From an uncultured Spirochaetota bacterium (GTDB lineage: Bacteria > Spirochaetota > UBA4802 > UBA5550), in NCBI GenBank assembly GCA_937872225.1, contig CALMRZ010000038.1, positions 1 to 64,000 on the forward strand: DNA of 64,000 bases, written 5' to 3'. Of the stretch, positions 20,370 through 57,812 are shown in pieces. Positions within the stretch are counted from its first letter, which is position 1. Every line of letters begins with the position of its first letter. The notes beneath the pieces are model-generated. The model was not told where the DNA came from. It was given only the letters and a program-made list of their open reading frames with translations, and did not search any database. Both the position numbers and the translations under genes were made by a program.

Positions 20370-20455
20370 AGTATTCTTCTCATTGTTTATAACAGACATG
20401 AGGTTTAAGAATTGGTCAACAAAATAACATTAATTTATAAATAATTTTTCATATG

Positions 20456-21208
20456 TTTTGACCGAGAGTCGGTCGGCATTAATCCGAGGGCAAGAGGGCT
20501 GCGCGCCCTCTCACCCTTGGGCTCCCTCTCACCCCGCCGCCTCAGGCGCCGGCGGGGGCTTGGCGATTAACTCGCCCTCATTCACTACGCTTCGCTTCGT
20601 TCTGTGAGGGCTCAGACAACAATCGCCTATCAGTATCCGCCCTTCGGGCGGATGTTTTGAGGGCTCATTCTATGATGCGCTTTATAATCGCTGCATGGTT
20701 CTATGTTTTTAAGAAAGTAAGAAGTGCCTATTGGCTTTCGCTCCGGAAGCCGCATCTGCTAACCACAGGATGTGGTTAGTGCCGGCGGAGACAGGATGTC
20801 TGAAAACCGCCGGCTGGCATCCTCGCGACGCCGGGCCTCGTGCCCGGCGACTGGTTATCTCTACACCTACCCATTAAGTCTGGAGAAAAAGCCTCAATCC
20901 CCCGCCCTCTGTTTCGCCGAGCATCGCAGACATACGCAGGCTATAATCCTATCGGATAGGCATAATCATATATATTCGTCAATAGCGTGATACAGAATTG
21001 ATAATTGTAAACGTTAAGCCCTCACAATGTCCGCCGACAGGCGGACAAACCTAACAAGGGTGGATGCCCGAGTCGAATCCGGCGAAGCCGGTTCGACGAG
21101 TTCACCCGAAGCCTCCGCCGGCGACTGAGGCGGCACGCGGGGGGTTGATAGGGGGGCCTTCGTGCAAAGGCCCCCCTATCCCCTTACCGACCCGCATCCG
21201 GGTCAAAA
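20456..21208. repeat. non-coding element with inverted ~105-base structured ends
   Basis: No gene fits in this stretch. Both ends carry the same three-part module in opposite orientation: a terminal 6-bp stem-loop (GACCGA/TCGGTC at 20460-20474; GACCCG/CGGGTC at 21189-21204), a longer hairpin (7 bp near 20492-20512; a perfect 14-bp stem at 21147-21180), and a GC-rich block (20536-20562 and 21109-21134, 23 of 26 alike). A third copy of the module is at 57647-57753. The element ends 22 bases from the stop of the radical SAM gene. Confidence 0.6.
20708..20932 (+). ncRNA. candidate structured RNA family, copy 1
   Basis: A 25-base block (20727-20751) is identical to the minus strand of 57537-57561, and a 32-base block (20901-20932) matches the minus strand of 57387-57418 at 31 of 32 positions, in the same order. 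Between them CATCCTCGC and GCGAC flank a stem that reads CGCCGGGC/GCCCGGCG here and CGCGGCGC/GCGCCGCG in the other copy. Arms that differ yet stay paired argue for selection on structure. Transcription and strand are not shown. Confidence 0.4.
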
Positions 21209-21229: not shown

Positions 21230-22336
21230 TTAATAAAACTTTTCCTTGAGATGACACGAGAAGGCTTTCTCAAGATCTTCCGAGGTCTTATATTCAACAT
21301 CAAAAACCTCGCGCCACACGCTTTCCGTCTCCATGCAGAGATAAACGAAGGGCGCATCGCTGTATGACCTGATTTTTTCAACCATGGCCCGGTATGCCTT
21401 CACCCTGACATGCTTCAGGTAGCGGAATTTGCCGTCAGGGCCGGGGAAAAGCTCCGCCGAGGTCAGGGCCTGGCCGGGAAAGGCATCCCTGATTATTTCC
21501 CTGAAGCCCGGGCTGTAGCGGAAGCATCCCAGGGACGCCCAGGCGACCCTGGCCGGGTCGACCCGTGTGAAAAGCCGGTCCACAACTTCGAGATATTCAT
21601 CAACCCACCCGTCAGAGCGTATCATGGGGTCAAAATGAAAGGCCGTCAGGTATCCGGCGCGGCTGGCGGCTTCCGCTGCGTCAAGACGCTCTTCCAGCGA
21701 AGCCGAGCCCGCCTCGTAGAGCCCGATATTCCGCGGCGTGTTCAGGGTCCAGGCAAGGACGGCGTTACCCCTGCCGTCGATGTCAAGGAGGTGCCGGATA
21801 TTGGCGGATTTCGTTTTCAGCTCCACAAAGATGTTACGGTACGGGGCCGCCGCGCGTATGAGCGATTCCCCGATGCCGGTTATCCCGTCAATCATCAGGG
21901 AATCGGTGTATTCACCGGAGCCGATCCGGTATACCGTGTCGGGGTTTGACGCGGCGGTTCGCTCAATTTCCCGAAGCGAATCCTCCACGTTTATGAACTG
22001 GACCAGGCCGAAGGAATTGAGATAATAATTCAGGAAGCAGTAGGTGCAGTTATAGAGACAGTTGAAGCCGATGTTTACCAGGAGGTAGTTGCAGCAGATC
22101 ATTCCCGGCGAACCGGGGCATTTCTGGAACATGCGGCCGGAGAACTTTTTCAGGATGACCGCCTCCTTTGAGGCGACCCGCCGGGCCCTGACGGACCCAA
22201 TGGCCGTCTCCATGGCGGCATCATCGGCGCATTCAATCATTTCCCCGGCCGCGAGCGCGGTAAACCGCCGGACGATCGGGTTGTCCCGATCCTCGCGAAG
22301 ATACAGGATGGCCCTGATGTCGTCGACGGTTTTCAT
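21230..22336 (-). CDS. SPL-family radical SAM protein (spore-photoproduct-lyase-like)
   Basis: The 368-residue protein contains the radical SAM cluster motif C93-LYN-C97-TY-C100 in the context NIGFNC..CFLNYYLN, the GSGEYTDSL SAM-binding motif and LKTKSANI, which match the SplB-like family. SplB itself repairs thymine spore photoproduct, but many members occur in bacteria that do not sporulate, and their substrates are unknown. A DNA-repair role is possible but not shown. The gene is divergent from the rhodanese gene and lies next to the non-coding element at 20.5-21.2 kb. Confidence 0.85.
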   Translation of the reverse strand: MKTVDDIRAILYLREDRDNPIVRRFTALAAGEMIECADDAAMETAIGSVRARRVASKEAVILKKFSGRMFQKCPGSPGMICCNYLLVNIGFNCLYNCTYCFLNYYLNSFGLVQFINVEDSLREIERTAASNPDTVYRIGSGEYTDSLMIDGITGIGESLIRAAAPYRNIFVELKTKSANIRHLLDIDGRGNAVLAWTLNTPRNIGLYEAGSASLEERLDAAEAASRAGYLTAFHFDPMIRSDGWVDEYLEVVDRLFTRVDPARVAWASLGCFRYSPGFREIIRDAFPGQALTSAELFPGPDGKFRYLKHVRVKAYRAMVEKIRSYSDAPFVYLCMETESVWREVFDVEYKTSEDLEKAFSCHLKEKFY

Positions 22337-57115: not shown

Positions 57116-57228
57116 GGGCCGTCTCCCTCCTGAATATGACATTAAGACAGGGAAAGTTATGAAAAAGATCTCTTTTTTTTGCCCCGGGCCAAGGCTGAGT
57201 TTGCCCGGGTTCCCCGGGCGGGGGCTTT

Positions 57229-57275
57229 CACACTTTTCTTTTGTCACCAAAAGAAAAGTGTGCAAAAGAAAAGTG
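57229..57275. repeat. 15-bp perfect hairpin plus a third partial arm
   Basis: CACACTTTTCTTTTG (57229-57243) and its exact complement (57248-57262) enclose a four-base loop; the last 13 bases of the right arm pattern (CAAAAGAAAAGTG) are then repeated at 57263-57275. I have seen similar motifs dispersed in other bacterial genomes. Confidence 0.7.
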
Positions 57276-57386
57276 CCCGCCCGCTGTTTCGGCCTTCGGC
57301 TCCCCTGCGCTTCTCGACAGACGCGGGGGCTGCGGAACTCGCCTGCCTGCGGCAGGCTCAGACAGTCCTCGCCCTTAATCCGCGTC

Positions 57387-57583
57387 TGTCTGCGATGCTC
57401 GGCGAAACAAAGGGCGGGTTTTGCTCCTAGCGGATAGCCACAATCAGACTCGTATATAACATGGGTGCTTATAGAAACTTATACATACCCGTCGCGGCGC
57501 AGGAGGCGCCGCGGTGCGAGGATGCCACAGGATGTGGCTTCCGGAGCGAAAGCCAATAGGTACATCTTACATTCTTAATAAGC
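57387..57583 (-). ncRNA. candidate structured RNA family, copy 2
   Basis: Read on the minus strand this is the homologue of 20708-20932: upstream 21 bases about 80% alike, then the identical 25-base block (57537-57561), the CATCCTCGC box, a stem CGCGGCGC/GCGCCGCG whose arms differ from copy 1 but pair perfectly, GCGAC, and the 31/32 block at 57387-57418. Confidence 0.4.
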
Positions 57584-57812
57584 TGAACATAACAACGCGA
57601 CAACAAAAACAGAAAAATAAAAAACCATAAAAAAACATCAACCTTGAGCCCCCGCCGGCGTTGAGGCGGCGGGGGTGATGGTGAGCGCGAGAGGAAGAGG
57701 GGAAGTCACCCCTCTTCCTCTCGCACAAATCCAGACCGGATCCCGGTCGAAACCATGCCCTGTTCAGCGCTCTTGAAGAGATAGCGTATTGCAGTGTGTG
57801 AACTACACATGG

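Follow-up and report, generated by a model that had tools for sequence, protein, structure and literature searches.

Two intergenic loci in the window, the 64-kb stretch of DNA analysed here, carry copies of a hairpin cassette (module A) that is a real, well-supported structural family, probably misread as RNA in an earlier note. On the best reading, what is new is a family of non-autonomous palindromic repeats (MITE- or BIME-like, with PIT-type ends) of a kind already known; its wobble-free covariation and triplex-type ends are unusual in a palindromic repeat family. Module A would then be the central hairpin cassette of a non-autonomous intergenic DNA repeat family whose constraint lies on DNA, including mobilisation in trans, a reading that we rate at most moderately probable; action at the DNA level in the broader sense, whether the fold is under selection or not, is likely.

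Two loci and two modules

The 25-base block at 20727-20751 (+) recurs identically at 57536-57560 (-), with a chance expectation of 0, and a third copy is absent from the 64-kb window. The second block (20901-20932) differs between the loci at one of 32 bases and holds a 23-base core that is exact at both; the hairpin between the blocks has the arms and loops claimed for it, CGCCGGGC-CTCGT-GCCCGGCG (20829-20849) and, in the 57-kb copy, CGCGGCGC-CTCCT-GCGCCGCG. Of the flanks said to enclose this hairpin, GCGAC overlaps its 3' arm. A nearer conserved hairpin, GCC-ACATCCTGT-GGC in the 57-kb copy, had been overlooked; at 20.7 kb its position is held by a two-hairpin arm of ~55 nt instead.

The two loci are real, as described, but what had been presented as a pair of unlinked loci turns out to be part of a dispersed repeat family. 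When the 57-kb copy was compared with its own genome (blastn; 4.69 Mb, 95 contigs), 20 matches were obtained that represent two independent modules: module A, composed of the 25-base block, hairpin 2, CATCCTCGC and hairpin 3, and module B, to which the second block belongs. The two blocks do keep the same order at both loci, but as separate modules, each of which also occurs without the other elsewhere in the genome.

Composite elements in the window

The first composite element (20456-21208) lies in the intergenic region between prfB (ending at 20399, -) and a gene for an SPL-like radical SAM protein (21230-22336, -). It is built around inverted arms (20456-20472/21192-21208; 20536-20561/21109-21134, 92% complementary; 20647-20665/21017-21035), and the profile of composite ends matches at 20455 (+) and 21233 (-). 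From the left, it begins with an end hairpin, GACCGAGAGTCGGTC (20460-20474), that recurs elsewhere with altered stems, followed on the plus strand by an intrastrand-triplex-capable hairpin (20484-20520) with its third strand CTCCCTCTCACCCC (20522-20535; together 20484-20535), which entered the third-strand test below. The GCCGCCTCAGGCGCCGGCGG hairpin (20536-20561) has its inverted copy at 21109-21134; the interior modules AACTCG-[stem]-CTCAGACA and ATCCGCCCTTCGGGCGGATGTTTTGAGGGCT (20562-20665, +) have a partly inverted copy at 21017-21108 and recur in other composites. Module A follows at 20711-20853 (+) in a 143-nt form (covariance model R1, 82.2 bits, E 1e-21); its core, GCTCCGGAAG ... CATCCTCGC (20740-20826, +), comprises hairpin 2 with its internal loops, and hairpin 3 (20829-20849, +) is the one named above. 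The inserted arm (20759-20814, +) sits at the tip of hairpin 2 and consists of CTAACCACAGGATGTGGTTAG (20759-20779) and GCCGGCGG..CCGCCGGC (20781-20814). The same type of arm was found in the congener G012 (twice at L134, once at L131); other module A copies carry a second type of insert at this tip, and either of two larger arms can replace hairpin 2, one of them being that of the 20.7-kb copy. Beyond module A lie a fragment of module B (20901-20932, +), which occurs intact elsewhere with or without A, a right triplex-capable hairpin GATAGGGGGGCCTT/AAGGCCCCCCTATC (21147-21180) with its third strand (21137-21146; together 21137-21180, -), and the right end hairpin GACCCGCATCCGGGTC (21189-21204).

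The second composite element (57203-57748, -) was recognised by a left-end profile match and contains module A in an 88-nt form (57489-57576, -; R1 103.2 bits, E 3e-28), a triplex-capable hairpin GCGAGAGGAAGAGGGG..CCCCTCTTCCTCTCGC with third strand GCTCACCATCACCCCC (57671-57724, -), and module B (57226-57420, -), at whose end stands an A/T-rich triplex-capable hairpin (CACTTTTCTTTTGGTGACAAAAGAAAAGTGTG). Module B has ~250-bp matches on three other contigs (C64:96.6k, C38:98.8k, C81:67.7k); it is a repeat of its own of ~250 bp, with long-range complementarity between GCAGACAGACGCGG and CCGCGTCTGTCGAG.

Extent of the family

Copies are not few: model R1 recovered 15 convincing copies of module A in the own genome, one of them degenerate, 1-30 copies per genome in five congeners, and isolated weak matches in two further genera of this family. 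The iterated model R2 matched 16 of 393 genomes of the phylum, 15 of them from the same order; a pattern scan of genome contigs matched Spirochaetes bacterium MAG Zod_Metabat.30 as the sole genome, and plasmids yielded no match. In two congeners, G010 and G011, many copies are located less than 1 kb from a contig end (for example G010:C16 and G011:C9, C29 and C52); since repeats break assemblies, copies in these MAGs have probably been undercounted. The 1.18 Mb of own-genome contigs that were read were chosen mainly for carrying copies, and element density cannot be derived from them.

All own-genome copies read in context are intergenic and lie inside composites of ~450-800 bp. Inverted pairs of the composite-end profile flank most composites, and the ends have diverged; they comprise a GACC hairpin, an intrastrand-triplex-capable hairpin and a GC-rich hairpin. 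Terminal inverted repeats are present and no gene lies inside, as in MITEs; both features extend to a second, unrelated 180-bp inverted-repeat element with different terminal repeats, in which the module A core also occurs (G012 and G008). This A/T-rich element has the ends GGCGAAATATGCCTGTTTA(T/G)TGC, with ~6 copies in G012 and several in G008 (L139, L140, L141, L098, L158, L159); at L141:4130-4620 a tandem array of ~130-140-bp units (GGGGTCAAGGGGCGAAGCCCCT...) adjoins it. In another family of the order, the module A core adjoins A/T-rich triplex-type hairpins.

Pairing, covariation and the scarcity of G-U

The conserved pairing on which the earlier note had built its claim is borne out: 95-98% of cells are paired, and covariation reaches 0.36-0.60, compared with 0.08-0.16 in shuffled and at most 0.13 in slid alignments; for the 15 own-genome copies the values are 98.5% paired and 0.358, compared with 0.076 shuffled and at most 0.06 slid. 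In the consensus fold, GC..GC and GGA..TCC pairings nest with a five-pair stem that contains A-A mismatches, and there is also a hairpin of eight pairs. Across 43 copies, 558 stem-pair cells include 127 changed on both sides, 17 non-pairs and a single G-U pair, and 49 matches including the inserted forms show 107 double changes and four G-U pairs; the copies are related, and neither cells nor double changes are independent events. Transfer RNAs from the same contigs contain 10 G-U among 234 pairs and no other non-Watson-Crick pairs (Fisher p 4e-5 against module A), a control that is small (n=11) and drawn with ARAGORN, which favours standard pairs. Counted between orthologs, stem changes comprise 13 double and four single ones, a weak basis in that conversion had altered the cassette subtype in about half of the eight pairs. 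The wobble tolerance expected of covarying stems in a structured RNA was thus not found.

The unpaired parts of module A are conserved on one strand. An NTCST pentaloop is strand-specific in hairpins 2 and 3, with C or G at the fourth position in ~84 of 86 loops; inside A, 14 own copies hold 23 loops of this type against one in the opposite orientation, and the joints CATCCTCGC and GCGAC are found in nearly all copies.

Strong covariation and strand-specific loops would also suit a structured RNA, a small RNA or mRNA element in which two adjacent hairpins present UCCU-type loops for pairing with Shine-Dalgarno sequences or for binding by a protein, with the composites as no more than its carriers. 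TATAAT-like boxes 5' of several copies point the same way, as does a weak similarity to Bacillaceae-1 RNA (RF01690; 25.3 bits against a cut-off of 35). Against this stand the near-absence of G-U, unlike the tRNAs of the same genome, the embedding in inverted-symmetric elements, and the missing element at the prfB site in congeners; at gathering and relaxed Rfam thresholds no family scored above cut-off. Of the proposal of a conserved RNA or hairpin-DNA, the hairpin-DNA half is the better supported, and the RNA half is disfavoured by 1 G-U in 558 cells, inverted-repeat boundaries and element-less or truncated sites. We regard the structured RNA as unlikely for the family; some module A copies may have an RNA function.

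A more specific RNA reading, a CsrA sponge transcribed from the opposite strand, starts from loops that read AGGAT or AGGAG on that strand; such AGGAN loops resemble those of CsrB, and each of the six genomes of the genus has a CsrA gene. The GGA is lost in ~26 of 86 loops (TCGT/TCAT types), the AGGA loops of the inserted arm lie on the other strand, and G-U pairs are again nearly absent, so that this reading is highly improbable.

Gain, loss and swapping among congeners

The gap between prfB and the radical SAM gene is a short intergenic region without the element in three congeners (G008, G010 and G011), and holds a truncated element in G012 and an unrelated insert in G009. This insert belongs to a different family with the ends CCCCCTAAATCCCCCGGAGGGG (L166, G009 C49), which occurs in the own genome at C78:3600-3870 and C37:11.9k. 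The 57-kb element is shared, among the five congeners, with G012 (the closest) only, where the left half and module A are the same and the right half is different; in G008-G011 the match is confined to the neighbouring gene. For about eight own-genome composites, the orthologous place in G012 is likewise occupied by an element, and movement is therefore slow or old. At ~4 of 8 orthologous loci compared with G012 the whole cassette subtype of A differs, and one G012 element (L123) has an own-genome counterpart (C28:117.3 kb) without a composite. No clear target-site duplication was seen at the compared sites, where the element ends have diverged. At one G012 locus (L134, C3:138100-149200), two module-A elements enclose ~3.3 kb of additional, gene-bearing sequence at a place where just one element is present in the own genome (C64:115.3 kb); the element there may have hosted or bounded the insertion.

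Replacement of copy type at orthologous loci, together with G-C to C-G swaps there and perfect Watson-Crick arms, would also be produced by passive palindromes whose fold is unselected, perfected by template switching and spread by inter-copy recombination and duplication. Template switching perfects quasi-palindromes in one step and is documented in E. coli (PMC7202029); since this correction yields the same pattern in DNA, compensatory changes alone are no proof of RNA. Loops, bulges and joints are kept on one strand throughout an order, and two unrelated element families share the core; both facts speak against the absence of selection, and we consider passive palindromes somewhat less probable even than a structured RNA.

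Triplex-type ends

Each composite end has a purine hairpin and, after it, a run of pyrimidines in mirror arrangement. Scored against its own stem, the third strand reaches 8.16, compared with 5.28 for swapped ends (19 distinct ends; none of 20,000 permutations as high); stem G faces C at 169 of 179 positions, and stem A faces A or T at 67 of 84. The purine-motif rule places G on G-C and A or T on A-T (PMC4666352); read on the other strand, the third-strand pattern equals this rule and has the sequence make-up of an intrastrand triplex motif. From this base pattern, these purine hairpins and their third strands are predicted to form intrastrand triplexes.

A proposed model of non-autonomous DNA elements

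We favour a family of DNA repeats in which composites would be assembled from interchangeable hairpin modules between diverged inverted ends. The constraint would act on DNA: loops, bulges and joints of A are fixed on one strand, and stems appear free to vary as long as they are Watson-Crick paired. A protein that binds a folded single-stranded DNA hairpin would impose such a constraint, comparable to TnpAREP on REPs, the experimental model for recognition of folded single-stranded DNA (PMC8266576); the inverted ends and the absence from relatives fit such a protein too. Recognition of the central hairpins in folded, single-stranded form is probable, and a single-stranded intermediate is postulated. 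Stems were probably rewritten by replication template switching and recombination between copies, not by slow RNA-type compensation.

No mobilising enzyme came to light. By end pattern, only elements of ~125-240 bp were found, and no autonomous relative appeared among the 180-bp-type copies or in the 1.2 Mb searched for composite ends. Y1 (HuH) transposases are present in 40 of 46 genomes of the order whether or not these carry the element; of the five Y1 genes that the own genome encodes, four are of RAYT size, with other or no matching flanks. Three RAYT-like transposase genes of 196-225 aa (L022, L023, L024), two with palindromic flanks of the GGGGTCAGAGCC type and one of the GGCTCAGAGCC type, apparently constitute a separate REPtron. 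The fullest version of the favoured reading, in which an undescribed enzyme would mobilise the family in trans, recognising loop and joints instead of stem sequence, with the triplex hairpins as ends, is a tentative proposal with a low probability; if true, the arms would be freely swappable, and bacterial PIT repeats might have originated as ends of such elements.

Compensatory arm changes are standard evidence for functional RNA. Here they affect more than 100 cells, are practically wobble-free and occur in mobile-looking DNA elements; counting G-U pairs is therefore an inexpensive test that may tell DNA palindromes and RNAs apart. Triplex-forming hairpins, whose origin was left open by Holder et al., here terminate inverted-repeat elements, so that their spread can be tested.

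Comparison with known systems

With REP/BIME sequences and the REPtrons of TnpAREP (RAYT) (PMC3733652, PMC8266576), the family shares intergenic palindromes, mosaic arrays and inverted copies, perfectly paired stems whose loops and flanks are conserved, and a likeness to REPs in being candidates for recognition as folded single-stranded DNA; unlike them, it has no GTAG tag or CGTC-AT...AT-CCA consensus, forms ordered composites of 450-800 bp, and is not linked to TnpAREP. As a GTAG REP it lacks an unpaired GTAG at the hairpin foot, where the joints are CATCCTCGC and GCGAC, and the RAYT-like genes are flanked by GGGGTCAGAGCC or other sequences. CGTC REPs have a CGTC tag, A-T first pairs, a CCA tail, a stem of 8-9 bp and a loop of 4-5 bases (PMC3733652); module A agrees in the sizes of stem and loop and shows a CGTC when the opposite strand is read, but has neither A-T first pairs nor the CCA tail. 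The Bacillaceae-1 RNA matches two adjacent hairpins weakly, with a score under the gathering cut-off; it differs in taxa, and module A is nearly without G-U.

MITEs and the modular repeats BOX, RUP and SPRITE (PMC3049150) are likewise non-coding, modular, intergenic and slow in turnover, and MITEs have terminal inverted repeats; here, by contrast, the terminal repeats are hairpins with drifting stems, there is no known parent transposon, and module types are more numerous. The PIT/TMECO repeats (PMC4666352) likewise combine a purine hairpin with a third strand and are often arranged as inverted pairs; one example is the gap between ugpA and ugpB in E. coli, where the two repeats lie ~150 bp apart (L227:590-735). 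This pair resembles a minimal version of the ends described here, with the third strand outermost in E. coli; the inward order purine-pyrimidine-pyrimidine of the present elements is the reverse of that in TMECO, and the hairpins here end a larger element.
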